From the IMG/VR virus record IMGVR_UViG_3300042923_000474, positions 62,001 through 126,000 of that record: a stretch of DNA of 64,000 nt; one strand, given 5' to 3'. Both the position numbers and the translations under genes were made by a program. Positions 2,394 to 58,979 of this stretch are shown in pieces (the first letter of the stretch is position 1; every line of letters starts with the position of its first letter). This DNA is from a virus. The notes beneath the pieces are model-generated. The model was not told the origin of the DNA, searched no databases, and was given only the letters and a program-made list of their open reading frames with translations.

Positions 2394-2454
2394 GCATAGA
2401 CTCCAGGCCCACCGGGGGCCTGGAGTCACTTTCACCTATGCTATTTTTTTTTGT
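2394..2454. terminator. Bidirectional hairpin with GCATA/TATGC flanks, plus T-run
   Basis: A perfect 12-bp stem (2399-2410 with 2416-2427, loop ACCGG) lies between convergent genes. It is flanked by GCATAG (2394-2399) and CTATGC (2436-2441), followed by a T-run at 2443-2452. First member of the stem/TATGC family seen throughout the window; here a conventional U-tract also exists for the plus strand, but some 15 bases beyond the stem. Confidence 0.8.
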
Positions 2455-2455
2455 C

Positions 2456-5197
2456 TCAGACAGTGCTGTCGTCGTTGGAGCTGTCGTCACTGGTGCTGGA
2501 AGAATCATCCTCGGAAGAGGAATCACCCGAGTCATCACCAAAGTCGAACTCACCACCATCGCCATCGCCGTCTTCGTCGCCCATGTCGAAGTCACCGAAG
2601 TCGTCATCGCCCCCGAAGTCAGAGTCGAAGTCGTCACCACCGCTACCACCACCTGTGGTCTCTGAACCCTCACCGGCCTCAGTGCCCTCAACACGGTTAG
2701 CATCCAGACGCTCCTTGAGAGTCGCCATCTGGTTCTCACTGATGAGTGCGGCAGAGTACAGCTGTAGGCCCATGCCTTGGATGATCTTGGTAAGACGCCC
2801 TGCGTTGACCACACCGTCCATAACCAGCATGCTGCCTGGATCTTCGGCGGTGTCGTTCTTGAACAGGTTGGTAACCTCTGGCAAGATCGAGTTGCTGCGG
2901 CAGTAATCGAGCACCAGCGTAGACTTCACAGATGCCTTCAGTACAGCCACCCACTCGTTCGCACTTTCACCCGTCACGTTCGACTGCATCAGATCGTCAG
3001 GAACAATGTTGTCCAAGACTTTCTCAACAGCGGTCACGTAGTCGTCAAGATCGGTCATGCGGTTGGCAAGGCCGGTATCAGGACGAGGGAGGGTGCAGGT
3101 ATAGATCGAGAAGAAAGCTGTGATGAAATAATCTTCACCGAGCTTGGCCACAATCTTCTTGTCCATCTTGTCGACGTGGTTACCCACAGCCTTACGCATC
3201 TTATCCATGTAGCCCTTGTGGTTAAGGACCAACTTGATAAGTGTTTCGCGGATGAACAGGTTAGTGCGATCTTGCAATGCCAGTGCACGTTTGAGCGACA
3301 GTTCGTTCGAGGTCGCCATCTTGGACGAGAACTCGATCTGAGTCGACAGGTCCACAATCTCTGGTGCCAGACCAAAGCCCATGGTTTGCCGCTTACGCAG
3401 ATCTTCATCCAGATCCAGGTTGACTTCCTTGTACTCAACCGGGCGAGAGTCGATAGACACCTCGGTACCAGGGTAGTTGTCACCACCCTTCACAGATACG
3501 GCCAGACCAGAGTTCTGAGCCACTTCAACCATACGACGAGGGTTGGAGCTAGCCCATGGAATGGAGTTGCCGCGGTTACGAGCGTACTCGTGGAGAATCA
3601 TCTCCTTGGTACGAGACTTGTTAGGGTCATCCTCGTCCACTGTGATGTTGAGCGTACGGTGATCGATCGAGTTGCGGATGTGCGTTTCGATGTTCATGAA
3701 CATGGTCAGTGCACGGATAGAGGACAGGATCTTGTTGTCTTCCATCAGCGAACGGCCAGTACCGTTGTCGTTGTAGTCGTACGTCCAGTAGATCACCATG
3801 TCGGCAGGGACATAAACCACACGAGTCTGCTTACCCGCCAGCGCTCGTTCGAACATCAGGTCGTAAGCCATTTCCACACGGCTCACGGTCACGTTACCCA
3901 CCGAACCATGCAACAGACGATTCTCGATGTCACGCAGAGCCAACTCACGGAAAGCCTGCACCGCTTGCATCGTCATCAACTGTTGGGAGAAACCATCCTC
4001 CATGTTCAGCTGGTCTGCCATGTTATTCAGCATGCCAGAGACAGCGTTACGGTTGTTGAACACACCCGCTGAGATGTTACGCATGTAATCGCTACGGGCC
4101 GAACGACTGATGAAGGCGCCGAACTCATCGAGCAAGAACAGGTAACCCACAGGTTTGCTCGGACTGCCTGGACGCACTACAGGCATGCAGGATTCAGTTG
4201 GAGCACCTTTCCACAAAGGAGGACCTACCGCTTCGCGGCTGGCTTCTTCCTGACGCATCATCATGACGATGTCTTCAGGCTTGTGGTCTGGACTGTGGTA
4301 CATGGCTTCGATGTTGCCGAACATGCTGTTGCCACCAAACGACTCAATGGCCATGTTGGTTTGCGTACGCTTGATCGAGGAGACGATGTCTTCCAGCTTC
4401 ATCATCTGCGGGTTATCAAACAGCTCAGGCATCACAAAGCCTGTCAGCTTGCTGAAGTCCCACTTGTTGCCATCCATCATGGTACCCGCTACTTTGAGCG
4501 GTTCGAGCTTGTCGACAACCTCAGGCGGTCTGGACAGGCCATCCAGCATGCTCTCCAGCGTCATCTTCACGCCGGCAGCTGGAGCGGTCTTTGGACCATT
4601 GGCCATGAAGCCGCGGGGCTTGCTGATGTCGTTGTAGAGACCCTTCTCACGGAACGATTCCAACGTGATCTTGTGCGCACCCCGGCCATTGATCAAGTCG
4701 TCCAACGAGTTCTCAGGGATGACGATAGAAACGTCAGCACCTTCAGAGACTAAGGCCTTACGCAGTTTTTCCTGCAAAAGGGACTTAATCTTATAGTTCT
4801 GCTCGGCCTCCTTCAAGATTTCGAGCATCTCCTGTGCCATTTCGGCAACCAGGATATTCGGTTCAACGGCATGCTTGAGTTCGATCTTGTCGATGTCTTT
4901 GGGTGTCAGAATCAACGACAACAGAACCTGGATGCAGAGTTCAATCTCCGGCAGCATGGCCATGTGGTTTTTGTAGTCGTCGATGTTTGTAGCCATGACA
5001 TCGGCGGATTCTTGCAGGTAGCCAAAGTTACCCAAGTAAGGACTGTCGGTACGCTCGCGACTTTCGCCGTTAGGGTCGCGAATCATCTTTGACATGATGG
5101 TGTTGTTATCAACACCCGCTCGACTGTGCGGGAGTCGGGTATTGGGTGCGCCAGAACGAATGACGTTCTGAGCAGAGACTCGACCTGACGGGTTCAT
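2456..5197 (-). CDS. Portal protein (phage head-tail connector)
   Basis: Predicted portal, forming the ring through which DNA enters and leaves the capsid. The middle of the 913-residue protein has the characteristic portal order: a beta segment with VYVPADMVIYW, then YDYNDNGTGRSLME, a helical stretch on allocating subunits, then IRNSIDHRTL. The length suits the very large portals of jumbo phages. The start is ATG at 5197, preceded by AGAAGGA six bases upstream; a frame-extending ATG at 5251 lacks such a site. The last 60-70 residues are an extreme Asp/Ser/Gly/Glu tail. Family assignment is from the motif pattern, not from a search. Divergent from the next gene, convergent with the previous one. 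Confidence 0.72.
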   Translation of the reverse strand: MNPSGRVSAQNVIRSGAPNTRLPHSRAGVDNNTIMSKMIRDPNGESRERTDSPYLGNFGYLQESADVMATNIDDYKNHMAMLPEIELCIQVLLSLILTPKDIDKIELKHAVEPNILVAEMAQEMLEILKEAEQNYKIKSLLQEKLRKALVSEGADVSIVIPENSLDDLINGRGAHKITLESFREKGLYNDISKPRGFMANGPKTAPAAGVKMTLESMLDGLSRPPEVVDKLEPLKVAGTMMDGNKWDFSKLTGFVMPELFDNPQMMKLEDIVSSIKRTQTNMAIESFGGNSMFGNIEAMYHSPDHKPEDIVMMMRQEEASREAVGPPLWKGAPTESCMPVVRPGSPSKPVGYLFLLDEFGAFISRSARSDYMRNISAGVFNNRNAVSGMLNNMADQLNMEDGFSQQLMTMQAVQAFRELALRDIENRLLHGSVGNVTVSRVEMAYDLMFERALAGKQTRVVYVPADMVIYWTYDYNDNGTGRSLMEDNKILSSIRALTMFMNIETHIRNSIDHRTLNITVDEDDPNKSRTKEMILHEYARNRGNSIPWASSNPRRMVEVAQNSGLAVSVKGGDNYPGTEVSIDSRPVEYKEVNLDLDEDLRKRQTMGFGLAPEIVDLSTQIEFSSKMATSNELSLKRALALQDRTNLFIRETLIKLVLNHKGYMDKMRKAVGNHVDKMDKKIVAKLGEDYFITAFFSIYTCTLPRPDTGLANRMTDLDDYVTAVEKVLDNIVPDDLMQSNVTGESANEWVAVLKASVKSTLVLDYCRSNSILPEVTNLFKNDTAEDPGSMLVMDGVVNAGRLTKIIQGMGLQLYSAALISENQMATLKERLDANRVEGTEAGEGSETTGGGSGGDDFDSDFGGDDDFGDFDMGDEDGDGDGGEFDFGDDSGDSSSEDDSSSTSDDSSNDDSTV

Positions 5198-5243
5198 CGT
5201 ACGTCCTTCTTTTACAGGTGTCACAATTTTTGGGGTGCTGGCG

Positions 5244-7529
5244 ATGGCCAACGACTATTATCAAATCTACCGCGATAGCGTAAAGCGGATGGCCCGAACT
5301 ATGGTCATTCGTCATGACCTCAGCGCTCAGGCTACAAACCGTTACCTCATCAATGCCGGTATTCCCGTGGGCGATGATAGACGAGGCTGGCGTTACTACA
5401 TGAATATCGCCGGACTATATCATTCTACTAATGAAATGATGCAGGTCCAAAGTCTTGACACACGGGAAATGATTGACTTCACCCGCGAGAACATGGCCAT
5501 CCACCGGGCTACGGCTCGGGGCTACGCTTACGGTACTCGCTACTACAAAGAGCTGGTGGCTCAGTGGGGGCGACAAGAGCGACTGATTAAAGGCATCATT
5601 AACCCAGTGGACATTGATGTGGCTATCAATGCTCGGGAGAATGAGATCCTCTGGATTGATCCTTTGCTCATGAGTGAGAACGAGGACAACCTCAAGTTAC
5701 TCATCCAAAGTCAGATCGATGCAACAATGGATCGCTGGCATGTCGAGATGTACTCGTTGACCGAGAGCCTCTACGACTGCTCACGCTACGTGAACCTTTA
5801 TGCCCACATGCCGGCCTTCATCGAGTTCGCTCGTTGGAAGAACAGCCGTACAGAGCGGGCACACAGCTTCTACATCCGTCAGTTCCTCGCAGCCAACGGT
5901 CGATTGGACCAATGGTTCGATGCGATGAGTCTGGAACAGCGTTTGTTCTTCTACCGCAACCTGCCTTACCTGCACCGTTACCCGGGTTGGCAGGACACGT
6001 TCGACTGGCTCAAGGTCGAGGTGTTGGAAAAACGTCTGTTCCCATTGGCCGACTATCGACTGATTCAAAACGTCGAGAACATGCCGAATGACCTGACGCC
6101 GGCTGTGGAACTGATCCGTCAGGAAACCACTGCAGACTACGCTGGGATCAAGCCTACCAAGGCCTCGGTGCGGGATGTGTTGGTGAAGCAGCAACGCTTG
6201 GCACTGCGCAACGCCGAGACGCTGGAAGAGAACGAGATCGAAACAACTCAGTTGATGAGCAATGCTCAGGTCAGCGAGATGCAGACCAAGGTGTTGGAAT
6301 CGGACGTGCTGGACATGACCGATAGCCAGATCTTTAAGCTCGAAGAGTTTCTGATCAACCACTGGGCCTATCTGGCCTTAGAGGAACGTTACCTTGCCAT
6401 CGTAACCGTTGAACACCCTCGCACCGGTGAGCCTATCCAGTTGTCTGCACTGGATGCGTTCATTCTGTTCCTGTACGTGTACAACAAGTCCGTGCTGCAA
6501 GACCTGACACTGGTACCCGACATTCATGTCAGCTGCGTGTTGAAAGATCCAAAGCCTAGCGCCAAGGAAATGTTCGATGTCTGCTGCTTGGGCAAGAATG
6601 CTTCTATCAACCACGCCAATGCACTCTGGGACATGATCCCTGAGTTCACCTCCTACATCTCTACTGAATCGTTCTACAACGCTGTGAATGCTTTGTACAA
6701 CGCCGCAGTGGATCAGCACAACTTGGCAGCCTTCCAAGGCCACTTACAAACGCGTGCTGAAGTGGAGGCCATGGGCCTTTACATGTTCATGGACTACGGC
6801 GTAAGTCTAGCTGGTGAAGTGCCATACGACGATTGGATGAATGTGCGGGGTCTGTCCACGATCCGTGACCTGAACCAGACAGAGTGTGAAGGCTTGTCTT
6901 CTGCTCTGCTGCAAAGTGCTACGGGGATGGACCTCAACGTCTCGCTGTCGTTGAACGATATCCACAAGGCCATGATCGGCATCATGCAGCGCCTGTCGTC
7001 TTATTCGGTTCACTATGTGCGCCTGATGAACGACTCGCCACTGCGTCCGATCGACCTTAAGTGGATTCGTATTGGTGACACGCTCGGTACAGGTGAAGGG
7101 CATCACGAGTTCGATATCCTGAAACTCAAGGAGATCCACAGTAAGGGTCAGCTCAAGGGTAACTCGGTATTGCCGAACCTTGACAACATGCAGGTGCAGG
7201 AGTGGGAGACGGATCTGGCGGGTACATCGATGATGATGTTCGGCCTGACGTTTGAACAGCAGACCGAGAAGCATGGCCACTCGTACATTGAGATGCCACG
7301 TCTGCGGATGTTTGAACCCGTACTGCGTCCAGTGACAGACCTGTCGGTCTACAAGCTTTCCACAGACATCATCGTGGGGCCACTGGACCCAGAGGCAGAG
7401 CACGTGGGTGAGGTGATCTCTACTCGCTACTTGTCCGGCCTGAACTACCCGAACCATGCCAGTGAACTGACACCGCTGGATCGCGTGATCACCAACGTTA
7501 ACCTCAGGGGGCTTGAGTACCCTGAATAA
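5244..7529 (+). CDS. Virion structural protein, tail/baseplate block (unknown fold)
   Basis: A 761-residue protein without a motif I can name. It has no signal peptide or membrane helix and is rich in aromatic residues and Arg. It starts the plus-strand structural run just 46 bases from the divergent portal start. The ATG at 5244 was preferred over an in-frame GTG at 5235; only a weak G-rich site (GGGGTG) precedes it. It ends at a classical intrinsic terminator. Its position beside the portal and before four overlapping small virion genes suggests a tail or baseplate component; this is inference. Confidence 0.7.
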   Translation: MANDYYQIYRDSVKRMARTMVIRHDLSAQATNRYLINAGIPVGDDRRGWRYYMNIAGLYHSTNEMMQVQSLDTREMIDFTRENMAIHRATARGYAYGTRYYKELVAQWGRQERLIKGIINPVDIDVAINARENEILWIDPLLMSENEDNLKLLIQSQIDATMDRWHVEMYSLTESLYDCSRYVNLYAHMPAFIEFARWKNSRTERAHSFYIRQFLAANGRLDQWFDAMSLEQRLFFYRNLPYLHRYPGWQDTFDWLKVEVLEKRLFPLADYRLIQNVENMPNDLTPAVELIRQETTADYAGIKPTKASVRDVLVKQQRLALRNAETLEENEIETTQLMSNAQVSEMQTKVLESDVLDMTDSQIFKLEEFLINHWAYLALEERYLAIVTVEHPRTGEPIQLSALDAFILFLYVYNKSVLQDLTLVPDIHVSCVLKDPKPSAKEMFDVCCLGKNASINHANALWDMIPEFTSYISTESFYNAVNALYNAAVDQHNLAAFQGHLQTRAEVEAMGLYMFMDYGVSLAGEVPYDDWMNVRGLSTIRDLNQTECEGLSSALLQSATGMDLNVSLSLNDIHKAMIGIMQRLSSYSVHYVRLMNDSPLRPIDLKWIRIGDTLGTGEGHHEFDILKLKEIHSKGQLKGNSVLPNLDNMQVQEWETDLAGTSMMMFGLTFEQQTEKHGHSYIEMPRLRMFEPVLRPVTDLSVYKLSTDIIVGPLDPEAEHVGEVISTRYLSGLNYPNHASELTPLDRVITNVNLRGLEYPE

Positions 7530-7546: not shown

Positions 7547-7575
7547 AGACGGGCCCAGTGCCCGTCTATTTTTTT
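7547..7575 (+). terminator. Classical intrinsic terminator
   Basis: An 8-bp stem AGACGGGC/GCCCGTCT (7547-7554 with 7560-7567) is followed at once by ATTTTTTT. Unlike most hairpins in this window it has an immediate U-tract and no TATGC. It separates the 761-residue virion gene from the next structural run. Confidence 0.8.
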
Positions 7576-12001: not shown

Positions 12002-12432
12002 ACCTCTTTACCGCGACTACGCTGAACGAGAATGCACCCATCGGCACCCAGTCGTGGTATTCGATGGTCCCTCTGATTCAGTTGAGCTTTCCCTCGGGCA
12101 CCAACTTCGATCCTACCATGACGTGTAAGGATTTCCTCGCACAGATCATGGGTTTGGAAGTTGAGATCCGTTCCCGTATCCTGAACATGGATATCCCTGT
12201 CGTGGCTGAACAAGTCGAAGAAGCAAAGCGTGAAGGGCACAAGTCATTGCTCGTGGGCGTCATTGCCTGTGTGGTGGTGGCCAGTGTGTTGATTACCGGC
12301 GGCTACATTGTGGCAACCAGTCATCTGACCGGGGCGGCTGATGCGGGGCTGTTTGAAAAGTTCACCACCTTCATCCTGGAGATTCTCAAGATGTTGGTGT
12401 CTATGTTGAGTGGGTCCACCCCAGCAGCATAA
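11998..12432 (+). CDS. Membrane protein, holin candidate
   Basis: A 144-residue protein with a soluble first half and a strong membrane helix at about residues 82-107 (LLVGVIACVVVASVLITGGYIVA). A second amphipathic or hydrophobic helix follows near the C-terminus (FTTFILEILKMLVSML). Coupled by ATGA overlap to the o-spanin candidate, so a holin-like role in the same lysis cassette is a reasonable guess; holins have no conserved motif and this could be another envelope protein. Its stop codon is part of the flanking GCATAA of the hairpin. Confidence 0.45.
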   Translation: MNLFTATTLNENAPIGTQSWYSMVPLIQLSFPSGTNFDPTMTCKDFLAQIMGLEVEIRSRILNMDIPVVAEQVEEAKREGHKSLLVGVIACVVVASVLITGGYIVATSHLTGAADAGLFEKFTTFILEILKMLVSMLSGSTPAA

Positions 12433-12467
12433 AGCCTGCCTGCCCCCAAAGGGGCAGGCAGTTATGC
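12427..12467. terminator. Bidirectional hairpin with GCATAA/TTATGC flanks
   Basis: A perfect 11-bp stem CTGCCTGCCCC (12436-12446 with 12451-12461, loop CAAA) is enclosed by GCATAA (12427-12432) and TTATGC (12462-12467), which could extend the stem. Lies between convergent genes. No U-tract on either strand. Confidence 0.75.
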
Positions 12468-13738: not shown

Positions 13739-13782
13739 AGGGCCGCCTCTCGGCTGAAGAAGTATGTTATGGACGATGCATC

Positions 13783-13807
13783 GGCTATAAAATAGCCGCC
13801 CCTATAA
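13783..13807. promoter_or_regulatory. Divergent promoter-like region with palindrome
   Basis: The 100-base gap between divergent starts holds the palindrome GGCTATAAAATAGCC (13783-13797) and two copies of CTATAA (13785-13790, 13802-13807), both oriented toward the fibre gene. The CTATAA motif recurs in other divergent gaps. Promoter function is inferred from placement. Confidence 0.45.
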
Positions 13808-13838
13808 ACCCCGGAGACGGATTCGGAGTACCCGAGAC

Positions 13839-16040
13839 ATGTCAATTGATCTCAACACCGTCAGTCTCCCCTTCGACCGTTGGGGCACAGCAGCTACCAA
13901 CAAGATCGTGGGGGAACGACAAACTCTCACCAGCGTCGCCTGGACAGAGTTCAATATCCTGATTCCGAAGTACGCTCCGTACTACTCGGAGAGTATCCCG
14001 AACGACGGCATTACTCACTTGCCAAGTGGGCGCAAGCTGGTTCGTGGTAAGGACTGGATCGAGGGCTGGTACTTCCAATCCGCTTCTGGCGAACTGGGCC
14101 TGGACCTGCACTGCTGCATTTATTTCTACGACCCAACCTTGGCGGGTGAAGTCGAGATCCCATCCTACCAAGCGATGGGTGGTGAATGGCAACTCAATGC
14201 GGCGTTGCTCACCAAGATCCTCGCAGAGAAACTGCTCAACCCACTGCGTTACTACTGGGAGCAGATTGCAGAGCTGCCAGAAATCTTCAACCCGCTGGAC
14301 CACGACCAAGACATCGAAGACTTTACTCGTCTCGGCAGCTTGATCGACGTCCTGCGTGAGATCGCTCAGGCGATCGGCAAAGATGACCCGGCTATCCTGG
14401 CTCACATTGCCAACAAGAACAACCCACACGGCACCAACAAAGGCCACGTGGGGCTGCCGCTGGTAGAGAACTGGCGTCCGGCTGATCTGAATGACTTGGT
14501 TGTCGGTAACTTGACGTACCAGGCGTACATGAACCCGCCGATGACGTACCAGTTGATCCAGCGTACGGCCATCCCTGCGATCAATGCGCACATTGCGCGG
14601 GTGGACAACCCTCACAATACCCGTGCAGACAAAACCGGTGCCTACTTCAGAGAAGAAGTTGATGCCCTGTTGGAATCGCTGGCTCGTGGTCTGATCCACA
14701 ACGTCTATGCTTATCGCCTTGAAGGTAAGAGCGTGGCCGACATTGTGGCACTGGCTCGTGGTGATGCCTCCGGCAGCCTGGACGAACTGCGCAACCTGAT
14801 CACCGGCGTTTCGAATGCGGCGAATGCTCACGCCCAACGTACTGACAATCCGCACAACACGCGGGCTGACAAGACGGGCGCCTACTTCACGACTGAAGTG
14901 GATGCGTTGCTCGATGCACTGGCTACAGGTAACCTGCACAACCTCTACGCCTACCGTTTGGAAGGCAAGAGCGTACAGGATATCATCAGTGCCTCCATCG
15001 CCGGTGTGGTTGACCGGATGGATGAGATCAAGCAGGACGTACTGGACACCCTGACCGCCACGCTGAACAACTACAAGGCTGTCGACACCACCAAGTTTGC
15101 CGGTAAAACGGAAGACCAGTGGGTGGACATCATTGATGGCAAAATCGTTGAGGCGGTGAACCATTGGAACATCTGGCCACCGGGCGACGTCATCGGTAGC
15201 GAGACTGAGGCAAGCGTTATCCTCATTGCGGAAATGTCCGACTCTGAAGATTCAGGCGGCACCGACGCCTCGCACCGTGGTAGCTTTGGCTTCCGTGTTC
15301 TGATGGGTGGTCCTAACACCACTTCTGCAACCAACTATGCCGACATCTTTGTATCGCAGAGTACGGGTCAGGCGTGGGGTATCGCCTCTGCTGCATTGCC
15401 AACCGGCGTCTCGTTCTTCTTGGAAAACAAGTTCGGTGACGATGGTTCGCTGTGGGATGGTACCAAGCGTCTGTACATGCGTGCTCCGGCAGGCTTTGGC
15501 GCTGTGGGCGTTACTGCGTTCTCCATGACCGGTATCACAGTTCCGGGCGAGCAGGACATCTGGAAGCAGTCGACGTGGAATGGTTTGGGTTCCCCTACCA
15601 ACACCGTCAACATCCAGCTGACCACCAACGGCACCAAGGAAATGACGGACGCCGTGGCTACCAACGTAGGTCTGCTGACTACAGCACTGACCAACTTGGG
15701 CACCACTGTCGGCACCCAAGGCGGCAAGATCCTCGCACTGGAGAACAGCAACAAAGTTCGCTATGCGCAGAGTCGTCAAATCCCAGCCGGTCTCAAGATC
15801 ACCATCGACCTGCAAACGTTGGTGACCGATCCTGCAGACTACGCCAAGTACGATTACCTGGGCGCTCGTGTCAACGTATTGCTCCTGGACGAGGTGGCCG
15901 AATCCAACTCCAAGGATTCGTACATTGAAGCCTCGACCACTGTGGTCAAAGCTCTCCGTGGCAACCGCTATCTGGATCTGTGGAACTACGATACGGTTCC
16001 GGTTACGGTCGCCGTGCGAATCGAGCTGCCATTGCTCTAA
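13839..16040 (+). CDS. Tail fibre/baseplate protein with duplicated NPHNTRADKTGAY module
   Basis: A 733-residue fibre-type protein. The N-terminal 170 residues probably attach to the baseplate. Then come an NPHGTNK motif and two nearly identical 60-residue blocks (from residues 249 and 329, 80 residues apart), each with DNPHNTRADKTGAYF and LEGKS. NPHN motifs of this type are common in trimeric phage fibres. The C-terminal 250 residues are Gly/Thr/Ser-rich beta structure (knob or receptor-binding part). Related modules occur in the next gene and in the 1159-residue protein. First gene of the fibre run, behind the divergent promoter region. Confidence 0.75.
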   Translation: MSIDLNTVSLPFDRWGTAATNKIVGERQTLTSVAWTEFNILIPKYAPYYSESIPNDGITHLPSGRKLVRGKDWIEGWYFQSASGELGLDLHCCIYFYDPTLAGEVEIPSYQAMGGEWQLNAALLTKILAEKLLNPLRYYWEQIAELPEIFNPLDHDQDIEDFTRLGSLIDVLREIAQAIGKDDPAILAHIANKNNPHGTNKGHVGLPLVENWRPADLNDLVVGNLTYQAYMNPPMTYQLIQRTAIPAINAHIARVDNPHNTRADKTGAYFREEVDALLESLARGLIHNVYAYRLEGKSVADIVALARGDASGSLDELRNLITGVSNAANAHAQRTDNPHNTRADKTGAYFTTEVDALLDALATGNLHNLYAYRLEGKSVQDIISASIAGVVDRMDEIKQDVLDTLTATLNNYKAVDTTKFAGKTEDQWVDIIDGKIVEAVNHWNIWPPGDVIGSETEASVILIAEMSDSEDSGGTDASHRGSFGFRVLMGGPNTTSATNYADIFVSQSTGQAWGIASAALPTGVSFFLENKFGDDGSLWDGTKRLYMRAPAGFGAVGVTAFSMTGITVPGEQDIWKQSTWNGLGSPTNTVNIQLTTNGTKEMTDAVATNVGLLTTALTNLGTTVGTQGGKILALENSNKVRYAQSRQIPAGLKITIDLQTLVTDPADYAKYDYLGARVNVLLLDEVAESNSKDSYIEASTTVVKALRGNRYLDLWNYDTVPVTVAVRIELPLL
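14583..14751 (+). repeat. Fibre module, copy 1
   Basis: First copy of the in-frame block beginning NAH and ending near LEGKSVADIV, inside the 733-residue fibre gene. It matches the copy 240 bases downstream at most residues. Confidence 0.8.
14823..14991 (+). repeat. Fibre module, copy 2
   Basis: Second copy (NAH to LEGKSVQDII). The peptides are more alike than the DNA, indicating an old duplication kept by selection. Confidence 0.8.
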
Positions 16041-16053
16041 ACCTTCATTGGGC

Positions 16054-16070
16054 GCCCCGCTCGTCGGGGC
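16054..16070 (+). terminator. Short hairpin between fibre genes
   Basis: GCCCCG/CGGGGC (16054-16059 with 16065-16070), loop CTCGT, followed by TAG. No TATGC and no U-tract; could be a weak terminator or an RNA-processing/attenuation hairpin. Confidence 0.4.
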
Positions 16071-16100
16071 TAGTCCACGTTCGATTCAGGAGCATTCTTT

Positions 16101-17564
16101 ATGTCCCTTCGCCCGTTTAAGTTCGAGGTTGATAACACGGGTGTCAACCCGAACAACCTCGTACCGGCAGAGGCGCACACCCTACAAGCGTCGGGTAAGC
16201 GCTTCATCGTTACGGATCATGGCCCGTTCTATACGGACTCGTTGATCCTGATTGATCTGGCAACAGGTCAACAGTTGGCACCCCGTACACAGTTCACCGC
16301 TATCCAGCTGGAAGAAGATGCAACCGTTGAGTCCGGTAAGGAAGTCTGCTCGATTGTTATCATCGACGACCCCAAGGTCTCCAACCGTGTAGCGATCACT
16401 TACCAAGCCTACGGCGGCTGGATGTCCTATTCGGTTACGGCCATCATCGAGATGATCGAGAACCTGGACTTGGACAACCGAGTCATTCACTGGGCAGACA
16501 TTGTGGGCAAGCCGGATCGCTATCCGCCTGCTCCGCACCAACACCCATTGTCCGACGTTTATGGTTGGCACAAACTGTTCCCATCGCTTAATGCCATCCG
16601 TGAGGCTATCCTCGCCGGTGACCAGGCGGTGTTCGACCAGATCCGTGCATCGTTCGCTGCTGAGATTGCAAGGCTTGAGGCTAAGGATGCTGACATCCTG
16701 AACAAGCTGAACTCTCACATCAGTAACCTTGCCAACCCGCACAACGTTACCATCCATCAAATCGACGGTCTGTCCTCTAGCGAGATCTACGCGCTGTTGG
16801 CTCAGAAGCTCGGCAAGACGGAGACCGCGGTTAACTCGATGAAACTGGAAGGGCGTAGCTTCCTGCAAACTCGTGATGAGATTGTAGGCTCTATCCAGAA
16901 CCCAGAGCTGAGCCGTGGCCTGTTCAACAAGCCCAACTTGGGTGAGAACTGGAACACCAGCGATGCGTCGTTGCTGTTGACCCGCGATGGTTGGAAGAAC
17001 TTCAAGCAACACGAAACTCAGTTCGGTCGCAGCATTACTGAGCTGGGCGGCTACACCACGTCTGAAACAAACAACCTGCTCAACCAGCGTCTGCCTGTAG
17101 GCGGTACCGCCGTCAATGCCAACGCGTTGGAAGGCCGCTCGTTTGGTCAGACCCGTGCCGAGATCGTGGGCAGCATCCAGAACCCTGAACTGGTTCGTGG
17201 TTATTTCAACAAGAATAACCTCGGTGAAAACTGGAACCCTGTCAACAACAAGTTGGTCCTGACCGCAACTGGCTGGCGTGAGTTTGCCACCATGGCGGGT
17301 GAGAACGGCTTGGACGGCGGCTCTCTGATCTGGTCGGGTGGCATGCGTTGGGCTCAGGTGCAAGTGGCGTACGCTGACAACACCCGTTACAAGCCCGGCA
17401 CTGCTGTGATCTTCGTGTACACCAACTACAACGTTTGGGGTACCGGTAACGGTACGGCTTCGACCTCCGTTGACACCTACGGCATCATGGTCAAGATTGC
17501 CGCTGGTCAATGGATCTTGGTAGCAACCTCTGGCCCAGCCACTAACCAGGCCAACAATCTGTAA
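16101..17564 (+). CDS. Tail fibre/baseplate protein with duplicated LEGRSF module
   Basis: A 487-residue protein. The N-terminus (PFKFEVDNTGVNPNNLVPAE) resembles attachment domains of phage fibre or wedge proteins, followed by a helical region with APHQHPLSDVYGWHKL, an NPHNVT motif, and two copies of LEGRSF-QTR-EIVGSIQNPEL (from residues 249 and 343). The C-terminal 120 residues are Gly/Thr-rich beta structure. It follows the 733-residue fibre gene by 60 bases behind CAGGAG and shares the LEG(K/R)S module with it. Function: host recognition or its adaptor, inferred. Confidence 0.72.
   Translation: MSLRPFKFEVDNTGVNPNNLVPAEAHTLQASGKRFIVTDHGPFYTDSLILIDLATGQQLAPRTQFTAIQLEEDATVESGKEVCSIVIIDDPKVSNRVAITYQAYGGWMSYSVTAIIEMIENLDLDNRVIHWADIVGKPDRYPPAPHQHPLSDVYGWHKLFPSLNAIREAILAGDQAVFDQIRASFAAEIARLEAKDADILNKLNSHISNLANPHNVTIHQIDGLSSSEIYALLAQKLGKTETAVNSMKLEGRSFLQTRDEIVGSIQNPELSRGLFNKPNLGENWNTSDASLLLTRDGWKNFKQHETQFGRSITELGGYTTSETNNLLNQRLPVGGTAVNANALEGRSFGQTRAEIVGSIQNPELVRGYFNKNNLGENWNPVNNKLVLTATGWREFATMAGENGLDGGSLIWSGGMRWAQVQVAYADNTRYKPGTAVIFVYTNYNVWGTGNGTASTSVDTYGIMVKIAAGQWILVATSGPATNQANNL
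16845..16931 (+). repeat. LEGRSF module, copy 1
   Basis: In-frame block LEGRSF...EIVGSIQNPEL...LFNK within the 487-residue fibre gene; its partner lies 282 bases downstream. Confidence 0.7.
17127..17213 (+). repeat. LEGRSF module, copy 2
   Basis: Second block LEGRSF...EIVGSIQNPEL...YFNK, 94 residues after the first. Confidence 0.7.
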
Positions 17565-17573
17565 GGAGGCGTC

Positions 17574-18146
17574 ATGAACATTGCTGCATTGTCTGGTGCC
17601 TTCGCGCAGGCGCCGAGTATTGTGGGGGGTACCGCCAAAGTTTGGTTGATCTTCAACCGAGCCAACGGCGTGTATTGGGGTTTCGCTCAGTACGATGAAG
17701 ACCATGCGTTTGATGAAGACTACTTCGTCTTGGTCGAAGCTGAGATGGATGCCACCTATGAAGGCGTGGTTGGGACTTATCCCGATTACAAGATCATGGC
17801 CAAGGCAGACATGCCTCAGGAAATCGACGAGGCCATGCTCAATGCAATGACCTCCGAGAACATCGAAACCCGCTACCCTGTGACCAAGCAGATCAATAAC
17901 CTGGCTGCCGTGGTTATGTTGTTGGCCAAAACCGCTGGTCTACAAGACAACGAGTTGGTCGTCGCGCTACAGGAACAGGTGGATGAAATCGCCGACATCC
18001 TGCGCAACAACTCTCTGCGTAAGCAGGGTTACGCGGGTAACGATGCGTTCAAGTTCGTCACCACCGACGACCGTGCACGTGCCGAGAACTCCAAGTACGA
18101 AGGTGGTCTGCATGAGCGAATGGGTCCAAGAACAGTTGTATCCTGA
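17574..18146 (+). CDS. Fibre-associated protein of unknown function
   Basis: A 190-residue acidic protein directly behind the 487-residue fibre gene (9-base gap, strong TAAGGAGG site). The first half is beta-like with aromatic residues (KVWLIFNRANGVYWGF); the second half is helical and could form a coiled coil (residues 105-150). Such size and position fit a fibre-assembly chaperone or a fibre adaptor, but no motif proves it. Its last 35 bases overlap the first oxygenase gene. Confidence 0.65.
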   Translation: MNIAALSGAFAQAPSIVGGTAKVWLIFNRANGVYWGFAQYDEDHAFDEDYFVLVEAEMDATYEGVVGTYPDYKIMAKADMPQEIDEAMLNAMTSENIETRYPVTKQINNLAAVVMLLAKTAGLQDNELVVALQEQVDEIADILRNNSLRKQGYAGNDAFKFVTTDDRARAENSKYEGGLHERMGPRTVVS

Positions 18147-20470: not shown

Positions 20471-20505
20471 GCCCCGCTCTCCCCACGGGGAGGGCGGGCG
20501 TATGC
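20471..20505 (+). terminator. Plus-strand hairpin followed by TATGC
   Basis: Stem CCCGCTCTCCCC with GGGGAGGGCGGG (20473-20484 with 20487-20498). The single non-Watson-Crick pair is U.G on the plus strand and would be A.C on the minus strand, so it is built for plus-strand RNA. TATGC follows at 20501-20505. No U-tract. Confidence 0.65.
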
Positions 20506-24016: not shown

Positions 24017-24063
24017 GCATAGACCCCCTGCCCGCAATGGGCAGGGGGCTTGTGCCTTTATGC
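24017..24063. terminator. Bidirectional hairpin with GCATAG/TATGC flanks
   Basis: A perfect 10-bp stem CCCCCTGCCC (24024-24033 with 24039-24048), loop GCAAT, lies between the convergent fibre and endolysin genes. TATGC (24059-24063) overlaps the endolysin stop codon. No U-tract. Confidence 0.75.
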
Positions 24064-24798: not shown

Positions 24799-24833
24799 GT
24801 AAGTCTCCTTCACCAGTCACAGAATAGCCCTAG

Positions 24834-24839
24834 CTATAA
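24834..24839 (+). promoter_or_regulatory. CTATAA motif in divergent gap
   Basis: CTATAA lies in the 58-base gap between the endolysin (minus) and the next gene (plus), 18 bases before the plus-strand ATG. It matches the motif found in three other divergent gaps. Confidence 0.35.
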
Positions 24840-24856
24840 GAAACTAGGAGCAAACC

Positions 24857-27337: not shown

Positions 27338-27357
27338 GTAATACCACGCCAATGGCG

Positions 27358-27395
27358 CCCCCTAGTCTCCTAATTGGGGGCTAGGGGGTGTATGC
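27358..27395 (+). terminator. Plus-strand hairpin followed by TATGC
   Basis: CCCCCTAG/CTAGGGGG (27358-27365 with 27381-27388) with an imperfect inner stem, followed by TATGCC at 27391. Co-directional gap. No U-tract. Confidence 0.6.
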
Positions 27396-28825: not shown

Positions 28826-28856
28826 GCCCCCGGCCAAGTGCCGGGGGCTTTATACC
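28826..28856 (+). terminator. Hairpin between small genes
   Basis: Perfect 9-bp stem GCCCCCGGC/GCCGGGGGC (28826-28834 with 28840-28848), loop CAAGT, followed by TTTATACC. A short T-run but no TATGC; close to the family yet diverged. Confidence 0.6.
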
Positions 28857-31230: not shown

Positions 31231-31264
31231 GGTCCGGCTCTCAGGTGAGGGTCGGACCTTATGC
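31231..31264 (+). terminator. Plus-strand hairpin followed by TTATGC
   Basis: 12-bp stem (31231-31242 with 31247-31258, loop AGGT) containing two G.U pairs that are legal only on plus-strand RNA. TTATGC at 31259-31264. No U-tract. The next ATG is 20 bases downstream. Confidence 0.68.
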
Positions 31265-32055: not shown

Positions 32056-32094
32056 GCATAACCGCCCTCCCATTACGGGAGGGCGGCTACCTGC
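32056..32094. terminator. Bidirectional hairpin with GCATAA flank
   Basis: Perfect 10-bp stem CCGCCCTCCC/GGGAGGGCGG (32062-32071 with 32077-32086), loop ATTAC, between convergent genes. GCATAA on the left; the right flank reads CTACCTGC, the only one of 16 convergent flanks lacking TATGC. Confidence 0.72.
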
Positions 32095-32097
32095 TTG

Positions 32098-32235
32098 CTA
32101 TTTATTTTTTTGTTTCTGAACACGATCACTGATCTTGCTCAAGGCGATCCCCGCAACAATTTCACGGATAGCCTGACGACCCTGGCACATTTGCTGACTG
32201 GTCATGATGGGTACGCGCTCTGCCACTGCTTGCAT
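32098..32235 (-). CDS. Small basic protein, 45 residues
   Basis: Minus-strand frame starting at ATG 32235 behind AAGGA (six-base spacing), directly after the SUKH-like gene. Peptide has a hydrophilic N-terminus and a helical REIVAGIALSKISD segment, ending in the basic KQKNK. The T-rich run near 32100-32112 is therefore coding. Function unknown. Confidence 0.6.
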   Translation of the reverse strand: MQAVAERVPIMTSQQMCQGRQAIREIVAGIALSKISDRVQKQKNK

Positions 32236-36746: not shown

Positions 36747-36774
36747 GCATAAAGGCCCACCCCGAAGGATGGGC
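36747..36774 (-). terminator. Minus-strand hairpin followed by TATGC
   Basis: On the minus strand GCCCATCC-TTCG-GGGTGGGC folds with one G.U pair (A.C if read on the plus strand), then CTTTATGC. UUCG tetraloop. Lies between two minus-strand genes. Confidence 0.65.
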
Positions 36775-36785
36775 ACAATGGGGGC

Positions 36786-36944
36786 TTATGCCCGAGGCAG
36801 GCTGGTAGCCAAGGCTACCCAGAAGTCACGCCAAACTTTCTGCACGTCCAGAAGCGCTTTCGCATTTCCATACGGGCAGACGAGAGGGATAGACTGCTGT
36901 GGGATTACAACAGGAAGCTTTCGGTTCATGACGCCCCCAGACAT
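36786..36944 (-). CDS. Small protein, up to 52 residues
   Basis: The frame starts at ATG 36944, which overlaps the upstream stop (TAATG). An internal ATG at 36929 with GGGGGCGTC before it would give 47 residues. Peptide: basic N-terminus, VVIPQQSIPLVCPYG, then an amphipathic helix (LLDVQKVWRDFWVALATS). Its stop lies inside a GCATAA, as at several hairpin elements. Function unknown. Confidence 0.5.
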   Translation of the reverse strand: MSGGVMNRKLPVVIPQQSIPLVCPYGNAKALLDVQKVWRDFWVALATSLPRA

Positions 36945-41825: not shown

Positions 41826-41869
41826 GCATAGCCTCCCTCTCCCTACGGGGAGAGGGAGTGCGCTTATGC
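41826..41869. terminator. Bidirectional hairpin with GCATA/TATGC flanks
   Basis: Perfect 11-bp stem CTCCCTCTCCC/GGGAGAGGGAG (41833-41843 with 41848-41858) between convergent genes; GCATA 41826-41830, TATGC 41865-41869, the latter overlapping the minus-strand stop. No U-tract. Confidence 0.75.
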
Positions 41870-42627: not shown

Positions 42628-42654
42628 GCATAAAGACCAGCCCGAAGGCTGGCC
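42628..42654 (-). terminator. Minus-strand hairpin followed by TATGC
   Basis: On the minus strand GGCCAGCC-TTCG-GGCTGGTC with one G.U pair (A.C on the other strand), then TTTATGCC (GCATA at 42628-42632 on the plus strand). UUCG tetraloop; co-directional minus-strand gap. Confidence 0.66.
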
Positions 42655-47673: not shown

Positions 47674-47711
47674 GCATACTCCCCGCTCCCTAGGGAGCGG
47701 GGAGCCTATGC
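47674..47711. terminator. Bidirectional hairpin with GCATA/TATGC flanks
   Basis: Perfect 12-bp stem CTCCCCGCTCCC/GGGAGCGGGGAG (47679-47690 with 47693-47704) between convergent genes; GCATA 47674-47678 and TATGC 47707-47711. No U-tract. Confidence 0.75.
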
Positions 47712-52311: not shown

Positions 52312-53114
52312 TGCGCAGCACTATCTTGATTGAACTGGATGCTTTGCTCGATACGCGCTTGGGTGCCATGCGTGTGTTCAGTGAAAGTCTCTGGACCAAC
52401 ACCTGGAACGATCCGGCGTATTACAATCGGTTGGTGGATGACTTCGACCATTACGGTGCGGGGACCACTCTGATGTGGCGCGGGATTTACGAACAGCGTG
52501 GTTCTCTGCGAGATGCGGAGAGTGGTCAACTCTTGGTGCTCAAGAACTCCATCATGACATGCATGGTGGGTAAGATCGGCATGCACCTACGTCAACTGTA
52601 CTCAACCAAAACCACCTCGCCTAACTTCATCGGTGCCGACGTGAAGGTTAACGTCTGGCCGTACGAGTTGGAACAGGTAGACATGGATGAGATCGTTTTG
52701 GCCCTGGAACAAATGATGGTCCCGGACGAAAGCGGGTCTGACGTTGAGATCGTTGATACCCAAATCAGTTGCGTGCGTTTGTCGCCTGCTGAATTGACGT
52801 TAGACGAGATCCGAGAGAAGTTCAGTCGGGTGGTGATGTACAACTTCAACGAGTGGTGGGACATTCAGGCTAAAGCAATCTACGAGGCGGAGCGCGGTGC
52901 TACGCTAACCGAGTTTGTGGTGCCTGAACTTCTGCGTTTGGACAAGACCCGCAAGATCGACAAGAAGGTCTTTGTCGATGACACAGGCAACATGTACAAC
53001 CCATTCACCGAGACTAAGCGCACGCTGTCTGTTTCGATGAACCTGAACTTCATGTCTCCGCTGTACTTCTCTGTCCCTAACCCCCAAGAGCTTATCAAGG
53101 ACTTGAAGGCATAA
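52311..53114 (+). CDS. Unidentified protein, 267 residues
   Basis: Starts in a TAATG overlap with the previous gene. Mixed alpha/beta, soluble, aromatic-rich; a strand-rich N-terminal third and a C-terminal half with KVFVDDTGNMYNPFTETKRT. No catalytic motif recognised. Ends at a convergent hairpin whose GCATAA contains its stop. Confidence 0.62.
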   Translation: MRSTILIELDALLDTRLGAMRVFSESLWTNTWNDPAYYNRLVDDFDHYGAGTTLMWRGIYEQRGSLRDAESGQLLVLKNSIMTCMVGKIGMHLRQLYSTKTTSPNFIGADVKVNVWPYELEQVDMDEIVLALEQMMVPDESGSDVEIVDTQISCVRLSPAELTLDEIREKFSRVVMYNFNEWWDIQAKAIYEAERGATLTEFVVPELLRLDKTRKIDKKVFVDDTGNMYNPFTETKRTLSVSMNLNFMSPLYFSVPNPQELIKDLKA

Positions 53115-53150
53115 ACCCTCCCCCTCCCTGCAAGGGGAGGGGGAGTATGC
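53109..53150. terminator. Bidirectional hairpin with GCATAA/TATGC flanks
   Basis: Perfect 11-bp stem CTCCCCCTCCC/GGGAGGGGGAG (53118-53128 with 53135-53145) between convergent genes; GCATA 53109-53113 and TATGC 53146-53150. No U-tract. Confidence 0.75.
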
Positions 53151-53153
53151 TCG

Positions 53154-55040: not shown

Positions 55041-55044
55041 CATG

Positions 55045-55093
55045 CTCCCCCACCTTCGGGTGGGGGAGTTTATGCTGCCTGTTTATTTTTTTT
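55045..55093 (+). terminator. Plus-strand hairpin, TTTATGC and T-run
   Basis: Perfect 10-bp stem CTCCCCCACC-TTCG-GGTGGGGGAG (55045-55054 with 55059-55068), then TTTATGC (55069-55075) and a T-run 55086-55093. Co-directional gap. Confidence 0.7.
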
Positions 55094-55131
55094 GTCCAAT
55101 TCTATGAATCTTTTCCTACGAGTCCGATGCC

Positions 55132-56145
55132 ATGCGTACTACCCTAGCTCCTACCACGTTGAGCATCGGCTCAACGGACAAGGTTCTTGAGAAGAGTGCT
55201 TCTGAAGTTACCAGCGCTGCAGACAACACGTCCATCAAGGACATGCTGGTTGGTTTAAAGGATGAAACGGTTGATGCCCTGCGTAAGACACCCAAGCTTG
55301 CCTCGCAGCTCACCAAGCTCGTTGTAGACGCCAAGACAGGCAAGCTCAATGCAACCAATGCGTTGTCTCGTCTGAGTTCGGTGTTTGGCAACAAAGGTGG
55401 CATCATTGACAAGCTGTCGACTAAGACAGTCTCTCTGATGTCTGACACACTCGGGATGGACCCCAAACTGTCCAAGCGTGTCATGATGACGGTCAAGGAT
55501 GTGGCCACAGGTCGCAACACCAGCATCCTTGGTTACTCTGCCAACGTGTCGTCTTCTCAGGGGCTGGTAAACACCATACAGCGTCTGCTGGGCGACAAAG
55601 ATGTAATCGGCTACGTTGACCTCGATGCTGAGGCTTCGTTGCTCTCAGGCCTGCTCAAGGAAGCTGTGAAGGCAGGTATCCCTCAATCGGTTGACATCCT
55701 GCTCAAGGAAGCCACGAGCGAGGAAACAAAAAGAAGAGTCATCAGTGAAAACGTCTACGCAGTTGTGTTCAGCGGTAACCTGAACACAGTAGAGAAATTG
55801 ACCACGCACATGACACCTGAACAAATCAGGGCGCAGTACCCACACTTTGCCAGGGATTTCTTGGCACAATTCGCTCTCACCCCAGCAGACACTGTGGCCG
55901 AGTATGCGAACATCAAAACCCGAATCATCACTCTGTTCAACCAGATTGATGTCCATTGGGATAAGTCCTTGCGTGACGGGGCTTGGGTTCCTGCACTTGC
56001 TCCTTTCAGCAAGGCATCTGAAGACGCTACGATCATCTTCAATACGTCCCCAGCGTATCGTAGTGCTTTGGTCCTGGCCAAGAACTTCCCCTCCATTGAG
56101 ATCAAATCCTGGATCAAAAAGCACTACGCCTTTTTCCCCGGTTAA
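55132..56145 (+). CDS. Unidentified helical protein, 337 residues
   Basis: ATG 55132 with a weak GAG site. Almost entirely helical, Ser/Thr/Lys/Leu-rich, with no membrane helix. It precedes the DUF1353-like gene by 15 bases and the two virion genes, so a tail-associated or internal virion role is possible, but no motif is visible. Confidence 0.62.
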   Translation: MRTTLAPTTLSIGSTDKVLEKSASEVTSAADNTSIKDMLVGLKDETVDALRKTPKLASQLTKLVVDAKTGKLNATNALSRLSSVFGNKGGIIDKLSTKTVSLMSDTLGMDPKLSKRVMMTVKDVATGRNTSILGYSANVSSSQGLVNTIQRLLGDKDVIGYVDLDAEASLLSGLLKEAVKAGIPQSVDILLKEATSEETKRRVISENVYAVVFSGNLNTVEKLTTHMTPEQIRAQYPHFARDFLAQFALTPADTVAEYANIKTRIITLFNQIDVHWDKSLRDGAWVPALAPFSKASEDATIIFNTSPAYRSALVLAKNFPSIEIKSWIKKHYAFFPG

Positions 56146-56160
56146 TAAAGGCGAGCCGAC

Positions 56161-56739
56161 ATGGAAGATAAAATCCTGATTGTGCCAATCAGAAAGTTTG
56201 ACCAGTACAGTGTGTCCTTCAATCAGGAGTTCACGAAAGCGTTGGGCAAACAGCATTGGCTCACTAACGAAAACTACGTCTACTACTTGGGAGAGAAGTA
56301 TTCCAATGAGTGGGTTGTGGTTCCTCGCGGATACGCCACTGATGGCGCCACTGTTCCACCTGCGTTTCAAAGTATCCTGCCTGTGTTTGGCAAACATGGC
56401 TCTGCCGTCATTCTCCATGACTGGCTGTGTGAGTACGGCTTTGTGTGGCATCGCAACCTCATGTCGGGAGAAGTCACAAAACGTGTACTGACCCGTGAGG
56501 AGATCGACAATGTCTTCTTAGAAGCGTTGGCGGTTATCGAGATGGACCCCGGTACCATTCACTGGGTGAAGTTAGGCTTTGCTACCCACCGTGCACTTTC
56601 GCGTCCTAAAGTTCCCAACATGGACCACGCCAAACAACTCCTGGAGTTTAACTACGCGCAATCGAAGGGCTACCACCCTTTCGACGGCAGTTTGTTATAC
56701 GACGTGATTGATCACCCCCCGCTCTGGGCAATCGCATAA
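56161..56739 (+). CDS. DUF1353-like phage protein
   Basis: A 192-residue protein with the DUF1353 pattern: VPRGYATDGATVPP (residues about 53-67), then GSAVILHDWLCEYG (about 79-93), and a helix with ...TREEIDNVFLEAL... Members occur in tailed phages and prophages, function unknown, often near tail or lysis genes. Start behind AAAGGCGAG. Ends at a convergent hairpin. Confidence 0.68.
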   Translation: MEDKILIVPIRKFDQYSVSFNQEFTKALGKQHWLTNENYVYYLGEKYSNEWVVVPRGYATDGATVPPAFQSILPVFGKHGSAVILHDWLCEYGFVWHRNLMSGEVTKRVLTREEIDNVFLEALAVIEMDPGTIHWVKLGFATHRALSRPKVPNMDHAKQLLEFNYAQSKGYHPFDGSLLYDVIDHPPLWAIA

Positions 56740-56777
56740 AGGTCACTGCCTCTCCCTTGCGGGAGAGGCAGCTATGC
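56734..56777. terminator. Bidirectional hairpin with GCATAA/TATGC flanks
   Basis: Perfect 11-bp stem CTGCCTCTCCC/GGGAGAGGCAG (56746-56756 with 56761-56771) between convergent genes; GCATAA 56734-56739 and TATGC 56773-56777. No U-tract. Confidence 0.75.
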
Positions 56778-56779
56778 CG

Positions 56780-58912
56780 TCAGTTGTTAGAGACGGTACC
56801 TTTGGTGAAGAGGTTCAACATTCGAACAGGCATCCACCCACCCACCTTGTTCTGGAAGGCAGAGGTTGTTGTCCACGACTCGTAACTGGAGATCATCTTC
56901 GTCATGGCGATCTTAAGCTTCTGCGTGGTGTAGATCTGCTCTTGCAGCGTCAGACCACCGAAGACTGCCATCAACTCGGAATACTTGTTCGAGTCATCCC
57001 ACGTGGTTGGGTCAGTGAGCGTAGCCGCCCCTTGGAAGAAACGGTTTTCACCCACCACAGCGCCAGTAGCACCGTCAGCCATCTTGCCCACAGTCTGCTT
57101 CACACCGCTCCAGAAGCCCGCCTCGGTAGAGATCGGCATGGTAACAATGCTAGACAGGTCCACAATCGAAAACGTCACAGTGACGCCCAGAGGGTCACCG
57201 TCCTGGTTACGACCCATGGTACCCACACCGGTAGTGATGGTGAGGTCACGGATCATGCCCAGTTTGATCGTGTGCCGGCTACGCGAGTAGGCTTCACAGA
57301 TGAACGGAGACGTGTACGACTGCTTACCTGTGGCCAGAGGCAGAACACCAGCGAGCAACATCGAGACCGGAATCCAGATGTTCTTGAAGCGACTGATAGG
57401 GTCACCCGACCAGCTACGCAACTCGATGGTGTACGACGGAGCAGGCAGCGATGCTGCAGCGCTCTGCCATGTCTGCGGAATGTCAACGAAGGCGTTACCC
57501 ATCAGGGCTGTCAGGTTGGACACACCAATCATGTCCAGACCGCCAGCCATCATCCCCTTAACAGCGCCTGCCACCTCATCGATCACGCCGATACCCGTTT
57601 GGAACTGGGCAGCGTTAAACATCACCGAACGAGCCCGAGCAGTCATGCCGTTAGCGTTCTGAGAGATCTCAGATTCACCGACGGTGTTACTGAACGAGGT
57701 GGTGGTAGGGCCTGTGGAATCCACGCGGAAGGTTACGAATTCAGAGCCATCGTTCATCGAGGCCTTTTCGTGTTCTTCCATGGCATCAGTGAAGCTCCAC
57801 TTCGCCATCGTACTCGGGTCGGCAATCTTCTTACCCGTGGAGTCCACCTGTACGTTGGTTTCGTTCTCCACCTTAAAGGAGTTGACCTGCCGCTCCAATG
57901 CCTCGGTTGAGATGTTCTCGAACTGACTGCCCTGCGCATTGAGATAACGACTGACGTAGTCTCGCACGTTACCCACGTTGGTGTCCGTCAGGGCACTTAA
58001 GTAGGCAGCATTGGTCCAGTTACGGAACGCATCGACAAAGGCTCCCTTGGAGGTTGCCTGAATCGCCAGTTCGTTCACCGACTCTTGGAACTTGAGTGCC
58101 AGTCGGTTGTAACGGTTGGCCACACCGAACAAGTCAATACCACCGTCCTTACGGAAGATGTCAGGGAGCTGTTCGTTGTAGTGCTTGATCTCCTCCATCC
58201 GCGCTTGGGCTTCTTCCTTGGTCTCATCGCGGCCACCGACACGGGGAATGATCCCCATGTTGACAGCAATGGAGTTGGCAATGTTGTTAGCTGCCGACCA
58301 GTAGTTGTGCATGGTAGGGTCGAGGTAGTAGAACCGCGACACCGACGAACCCAACAGGAAGCTGATTGCCTTACCCGCAAACATCACAGGAGCGTAGGCA
58401 AAACCTACCACCCAACCGAGTGCCTGACCCATCCGGTAGAACAAGCCAGGACCTTTACCTGTACGCGCAATGACCGAAGCCTCTGGGTCGTAGAAGGTAA
58501 AGAAGAACGAGAGCAGGGAGTTGAACTTGGGGACACCGAAACGCATGGTGATATACTCACCGGTGTCATCGTACATCTCCGAGTAGGCCCTGCCCATACC
58601 CCTCGAAGCAGTTGCCCCCGATCGAATGTCATCCGCCATGTCGTTGGCCGCAATAAGCGGCTTCATGACCGGGTTGTCAATCGAGTAGGAGAACATGGTG
58701 TTCAGGCCAGCGACTGTCATGTCAGCATAAACAGTGAACTGGGGTGGTGGGTTGATGCAGCGTGCACCGCCCAGAGTGGTGTCGGCGAATTTGATACGTG
58801 CGCCAGACTCCAAACGCGCTCGTCTATCGTTACTCGACCTGCCCGCTCGGGCGATCAGAAAGCTGGAGCGCACCCAGCTGTCGTTGCGAATACCCGCAAG
58901 AGCTGTTGCCAT
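56780..58912 (-). CDS. Large virion protein, tail-hub type
   Basis: A 710-residue protein behind AAAGGAC. N-terminal part has two long hydrophobic stretches (LGWVVGFAYAPVMFAGKAISF) that could cross a membrane or pack inside the virion. A central disordered region is rich in Ser/Thr. The C-terminal 200 residues contain SWSGDPISRFKNIW, LPLATGKQSYTSPF, CEAYSRSRHTIKLGMI and TTGVGTMGRNQDG, a pattern typical of phage baseplate/tail-hub beta domains. Directly downstream of the giant tail gene, so probably in the same assembly. Confidence 0.65.
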   Translation of the reverse strand: MATALAGIRNDSWVRSSFLIARAGRSSNDRRARLESGARIKFADTTLGGARCINPPPQFTVYADMTVAGLNTMFSYSIDNPVMKPLIAANDMADDIRSGATASRGMGRAYSEMYDDTGEYITMRFGVPKFNSLLSFFFTFYDPEASVIARTGKGPGLFYRMGQALGWVVGFAYAPVMFAGKAISFLLGSSVSRFYYLDPTMHNYWSAANNIANSIAVNMGIIPRVGGRDETKEEAQARMEEIKHYNEQLPDIFRKDGGIDLFGVANRYNRLALKFQESVNELAIQATSKGAFVDAFRNWTNAAYLSALTDTNVGNVRDYVSRYLNAQGSQFENISTEALERQVNSFKVENETNVQVDSTGKKIADPSTMAKWSFTDAMEEHEKASMNDGSEFVTFRVDSTGPTTTSFSNTVGESEISQNANGMTARARSVMFNAAQFQTGIGVIDEVAGAVKGMMAGGLDMIGVSNLTALMGNAFVDIPQTWQSAAASLPAPSYTIELRSWSGDPISRFKNIWIPVSMLLAGVLPLATGKQSYTSPFICEAYSRSRHTIKLGMIRDLTITTGVGTMGRNQDGDPLGVTVTFSIVDLSSIVTMPISTEAGFWSGVKQTVGKMADGATGAVVGENRFFQGAATLTDPTTWDDSNKYSELMAVFGGLTLQEQIYTTQKLKIAMTKMISSYESWTTTSAFQNKVGGWMPVRMLNLFTKGTVSNN

Positions 58913-58941
58913 GGTAGAGTCCTTTAATAAAGGGGGTTAGG

Positions 58942-58979
58942 TCATAAAGTAGACAGGGCGCCCCCGAAGGAGCACCCTG
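58942..58979 (-). terminator. Minus-strand hairpin followed by TTTATGA
   Basis: On the minus strand CAGGGTGCTCC-TTCG-GGGGCGCCCTG pairs with two G.U wobbles that would be A.C on the plus strand, then TTTATGA (TCATA on the plus strand at 58942-58946). UUCG tetraloop. Confidence 0.6.

Follow-up and report, generated by a model that had tools for sequence, protein, structure and literature searches.

The locus and its gene-end stems

The window analyzed here, a stretch of 64,000 nucleotides, comprises bases 62001-126000 of the 231,724-bp IMG/VR record IMGVR_UViG_3300042923_000474 (G000), and its proteins have matches among the virion families of phiKZ-like jumbo phages. G000 contains homologues of the phiKZ nvRNAP subunits (gp123, gp74 and gp71-73) and of the virion RNAP subunits gp80 and gp149, together with a major capsid protein and a DNA polymerase; judged by these homologies, it is a phiKZ-related jumbo phage with genes for both phage RNA polymerases. 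One uninterrupted ORF of G000 (15816-17921, outside the window) corresponds to the nvRNAP subunit that in phiKZ is split (around gp72). Genes in G000 were called, without curation, by a simple caller trained on the genome itself (239 genes, 90% coverage). Two relatives were available for comparison, the close IMGVR_UViG_3300011774_000001 (G001) and the fragmentary IMGVR_UViG_3300028597_000020 (G002), while a search of a phage collection for near DNA matches to the window returned none and an Rfam search of the window gave no family at the gathering score.

An earlier note on this DNA had claimed that every convergent gene pair is separated by a perfect stem flanked by GCATA on the left and TATGC on the right, and reading of the sequence bears this out, with perfect GC stems in all eight convergent gaps and the motif at 15 of 16 flanks. 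Both flanks are present around the stems at 12436-12461 (whole element 12427-12467), 24024-24048 (24017-24063), 41833-41858 (41826-41869), 47679-47704 (47674-47711), 53118-53145 (53109-53150) and 56746-56771 (56734-56777), of which those at 47679 and 56746 covary in two relatives. In the element at 2394-2441 the stem (2399-2427) lies between GCATA at 2394-2398 and TATGC at 2437-2441, the latter being followed by a T9 run (2444-2452). Only the stem at 32062-32086 (element 32056-32111) lacks a flank, on its right at 32087; it has GCATA at 32056-32060 on the left and, instead of TATGC, a T7 run at 32105-32111 on the right.

Between codirectional genes, the motif was said to lie on the downstream side of the stem, and TATGC is indeed found there in six gaps, with TATG lacking the C in the seventh. 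On the plus strand these are the stem at 20473-20498 (element 20473-20505), which has one U-G pair and TATGC at 20501-20505; that at 27355-27391 (27355-27395; TATGC 27391-27395); that at 31231-31258 (31231-31264), with G-U pairs on the transcribed strand and TATGC at 31260-31264; and that at 55045-55068 (55045-55093), with TATGC at 55071-55075 and a distal T8 run at 55086-55093. On the minus strand, the stem at 36755-36774 (36747-36791) has TATGC on its downstream side at 36747-36751 and another on the far side at 36787-36791, the stem at about 42636-42653 (42628-42653) has TATGC at 42628-42632, and the stem at 58954-58979 (58943-58979) has TATG at 58943-58946. By contrast, the plus-strand element at 7547-7575 is a classical terminator, with a stem at 7547-7567 that is followed by a T7 run and no TATG; its near-immediate T-run is kept in G001. 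Ten window elements were folded and gave z-scores of -4.0 to -6.5, so that a stable GC-rich RNA hairpin, as expected of an intrinsic terminator, is found just downstream of genes. A further gene-end stem, at 28826-28848, has TTTATACCC (TATA), whereas the corresponding stem in G001 is followed by TTATGCCC (TATG).

Enrichment of TATG beside gene-end stems

TATGC is underrepresented in the window overall (50 sites vs 77 expected from shuffles), and 20 of the 50 sites fall in the roughly 1.9 kb that flank strong stems. In 20,000 random placements of eight segments of equal length, the best gave four matching flanks, compared with 14 scored automatically for the real convergent gaps, where a halving rule overlooked one flank of the first gap, which is long. 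In the 20 convergent gaps of the entire G000 genome, TATGC occurs 32 times vs 1.56 expected. Genome-wide, for strict Watson-Crick stems and a distance of -4 to +12 nt, no 4-mer is more enriched at gene-end stem flanks than TATG (48/64 vs 1.1 expected). It occurs at 33/38 convergent flanks, at 15/26 sense and 7/26 antisense codirectional flanks, and at a near-background 2/32 flanks of stems inside genes. The flank enrichment and the random placements speak against chance or base composition as the source of TATG. The distance from stem to TATG varies, being 0-4 nt in most cases and about 9 nt at most.

A scan of the rest of the genome and of relatives, as had been proposed, found the pattern to be genome-wide and family-wide, extending to phiKZ, 201phi2-1 and relatives infecting Xanthomonas, Burkholderia, Erwinia and Klebsiella. 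TATG was found at gene-end stem flanks in phiKZ (59/138), 201phi2-1 (48/100), LucasX (89/147), FLC9 (53/94), FLC6 (44/87) and Ea35-70 (53/75), more weakly in PhiEaH1 (22/81) and EL (14/78), and little in the Vibrio phage pVp-JHP1101 (6/37); at those of SPN3US (1/76) and AR9 (5/86) it is not enriched. It is the top flank 4-mer in G000, G001, G002, LucasX, FLC9, FLC6 and Ea35-70 and the second in phiKZ and 201phi2-1, and the signal is also seen in partial regions of Noxifer, Eowyn, phiHQ, KpLz-2_45, pAEv1810 and PhiPA3. A count of CATA-N10-40-TATG made with no stem requirement was uninformative in other genomes. In phiKZ, TATG accompanies 31 of the 39 stem-bearing convergent ends, in 27 cases at a distance of 0-2 nt from the stem. 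Downstream of the stem the consensus reads approximately T-TATG-Y-Y-G-T, or about (U)UAUGYYGUY in RNA. The carriers of TATG terminators do not group as one clade when a gp123 tree is rooted with AR9, and the simplest history would be presence near the base of the group that excludes AR9, with loss in the SPN3US/phiEaH2 lineage.

An RNA-level signal

The imperfections of the codirectional stems had been described as G-U on the transcribed strand, and this was examined by detecting stems with no distinction made between G-T and A-C pairs and orienting those of codirectional gaps with transcription. In codirectional gaps the G-U:A-C ratio is 46:11 in G000 and 561:121 in 14 genomes, while in convergent gaps the two are balanced (55:67), which is what would be expected if it is the transcribed RNA that folds and if the DNA between convergent genes is transcribed in both directions. 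Among 15 orthologous G000/G001 stems, which were selected because they differ, 38 pairs changed on both sides, four on one side and two were broken, and the TATGC flanks are kept in most of these stem pairs, also against G002. Both the strand-specific G-U pairs and the compensatory changes thus indicate conservation of structure at the RNA level, as in intrinsic terminators.

In the codirectional gaps of nine genomes, TATG is sense-only at 132 sites and antisense-only at 56, and since the 132 stems with a sense TATG have no CATA opposite, the motif does not look like the mere base of an extended stem. The view that the stems mark an RNA 3' end and not a promoter is well supported by the outward polarity at convergent ends, the sense-only excess, the G-U pairs, the covariation and the want of a clear TATG excess at the divergent promoters of G000, but the codirectional polarity does not extend to phiKZ (11:13) and 201phi2-1 (6:12). 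Thirteen phiKZ codirectional stems (e.g., at record positions 199169, 233278 and 243975) have antisense-only TATG and mostly a U-rich sense side, as though the two sides were meant for different polymerases. Overall, the comparisons point to a genuine, conserved RNA-level 3'-end signal.

T-runs, strands and the two polymerases

The statement that these stems have no immediate U-tract, and that classical terminators are rare, holds with a correction. A U-tract starting no more than about 2 nt past the stem is absent except at 7547, but T7+ runs do lie 7-20 nt downstream of it at several plus-strand ends. Where both are present (2444 and 55086) the distal run comes after TATGC, and the run at 32105 occurs without it; the majority of TATG ends have no T-run. 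At minus-strand gene ends no T7+ run was found. The intergenic T7+ runs of G000 (in the window at 2444, 7569, 32105 and 55086) are all on the plus strand, the sole two minus-strand runs being intragenic, and several of the G000 runs follow TATGC and are in turn followed by GTC or GTT.

At convergent ends T6 runs favor the major coding strand (80/213 vs 17/213 on the minor strand, 14 genomes), while TATG in the ten TATG-bearing genomes favors the minor strand (153/188 vs 118/188, p=8e-5); it has to be noted that this strand contrast is a mere stand-in for early vs late genes. In phiKZ, all 20 occurrences of the early-promoter 8-mer TATATTAC upstream of genes lie on the major strand, and units that have the early-promoter motif are depleted in TATG ends (6/33 vs 24/55, p=0.02). 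T-runs as a mark of early units were not significant in phiKZ (9/22 vs 21/66, p=0.45), although they favor the major strand nonetheless. We read the TATG ends as chiefly serving the nvRNAP, and there is a weak indication that T-runs might add to or substitute for them where the virion RNAP must stop; at those TATG ends that have a distal T-run as well, TATG may not be sufficient.

The promoter motif and the gp123 pocket

The TATG beside the gene-end stems is the same four bases as the start motif of phiKZ late promoters. These promoters require T-3ATG+1, at which the phiKZ nvRNAP starts, and every substitution in the motif cripples the enzyme (PMC4666361); the four non-template TATG bases are bound by gp123 in a pocket (PMC12809450). 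Every phage with strong TATG terminators retains residues S144, F151, K/R158, H331 and Q466 of the gp123 pocket, and all but Noxifer also S334, whereas one or more pocket residues differ in SPN3US, phiEaH2, pVp and AR9. EL and EaH1 are both altered at S144 and retain some TATG enrichment.

The divergent gaps of G000 show no clear enrichment of TATG directed into the gene, as late promoters would have it (5 vs 2.7 expected), while TATA occurs there 17 times vs 1.0 expected. This TATA, often as CTATAG and about 16-fold enriched upstream of divergent genes (e.g., at 24799-24856 and 13739-13838 of the window), is a candidate for a G000 promoter motif that differs from the TATG of phiKZ. In SPN3US, the terminators are without TATG and the motif is enriched upstream of genes (18 vs 3.4 expected), where it sits 30-39 nt upstream despite the differing gp123 pocket residues. 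A one-to-one link of promoter and terminator motif is thus broken both by G000, with its TATA promoters, and by SPN3US.

Proposed mechanism and alternatives

The location of the stems at gene ends, their TATG enrichment, the RNA strandedness, the covariation of the stems and the conservation in the family emerge from the computational analysis, and in our estimation (with a probability of about 70%) they reflect non-canonical intrinsic terminators, in which TATG(Y) replaces the U-tract and which would be used mainly by the nvRNAP. In this model, the nascent RNA would present a GC-rich hairpin followed, usually within 0-4 nt, by UAUG(C/U) instead of a U run, with a single hairpin serving both directions between convergent genes, where TATG is mirrored on each side. 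The nvRNAP would hesitate on the short TATG sequence, during which time the hairpin would form behind the enzyme, and would then release the RNA, TATG acting as a pause or release element. RNA 3' ends are thereby predicted to form at the stems with no need of a protein factor, and with the nvRNAP as main reader.

A more specific version, which we regard as possible if doubtful, is that the pocket in the beta-like subunit that receives the promoter TATG also grips TATG during elongation and so pauses the enzyme for release by the hairpin. The requirement of the phiKZ nvRNAP for TATG (PMC4666361), its binding by gp123 (PMC12809450) and the retention of the pocket residues alongside strong TATG terminators, with alterations in SPN3US, phiEaH2, pVp and AR9, are in keeping with this, as is AR9, which has a different promoter mode and no TATG terminators. 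Yet the residue conservation is confounded by phylogeny, S144 is changed in EL and EaH1 with some enrichment retained, and the two motifs are decoupled, given the preference of G000 divergent promoters for TATA and the upstream TATG of SPN3US beside terminators at 1/76. Moreover, with TATG 0-2 nt from the stem and G at +1, about 3-5 nt of RNA would extend from the stem to the 3' end. Should this version hold, which we consider improbable, a multisubunit RNAP would use one 4-base sequence and one protein pocket both as a start site and, after a hairpin, as a stop site.

It is unlikely that the stems are instead elements of 3'-end stability or processing, with termination further on, trimming back to the hairpin and TATG as a nuclease or protein site. 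T-runs do lie 7-20 nt past the stem at several ends, and phiKZ is known to have a processed 3'-UTR RNA with a stem-loop at its end (PMC8545117), but most TATG ends lack a T-run, and in many convergent gaps TATG ends a few nucleotides from the opposite stop codon, which leaves little room for a separate signal. The identity of TATG with the phiKZ late start motif, and its position upstream of the next gene in codirectional gaps, might suggest late promoters of the next unit that follow terminator hairpins by happenstance. This we hold to be very unlikely, since convergent TATG would on both sides drive antisense RNA into the opposite gene, the divergent gaps of G000, bound to hold promoters, have little sense TATG, and no obvious hairpin directly precedes TATG, by eye, in the phiKZ P119L region. 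Scarcely credible is a palindrome acting on the DNA level, as a cruciform or protein site with no relation to RNA ends; the mirrored CATA-stem-TATG of convergent gaps would fit it, but the strand-specific G-U wobble of the codirectional gaps and their sense-only TATG (132 vs 56) do not.

Relation to known systems and implications

Like bacterial Rho-independent terminators, the terminators proposed here have a GC-rich RNA hairpin at gene ends that can be bidirectional between convergent genes; unlike bacterial intrinsic terminators, they would have TATG(Y) in place of the U-tract. A standard stem-plus-T-run scan of 41-59 kb found no more hits than in shuffles and picked up just two of the TATG sites. 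The motif is identical in its four bases to that of the phiKZ nvRNAP late promoter, and G000 has homologues of gp123 and gp74, but its TATG follows a hairpin, points away from it and lies at gene ends. AR9 and SPN3US, likewise jumbo phages with multisubunit RNAPs, also have gene-end hairpins, which differ in having T/A-rich tails in place of an enriched TATG, and AR9 RNA-seq has placed termination at predicted terminators (PMC5312081). A search of the open literature found no report of a hairpin-TATG signal, with an earlier mention in the main phiKZ transcriptome paper being possible, and two recent jumbo-phage reviews leave terminators unmentioned.

How the multisubunit RNAPs of nucleus-forming jumbo phages stop has barely been studied. 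The signal described here is family-wide and defined by sequence, so that it can be tested directly with the phiKZ nvRNAP, which has already been purified, and it offers an annotation of operon ends that U-tract finders miss. The signal also provides a clue to the division of labor between the two phage polymerases.
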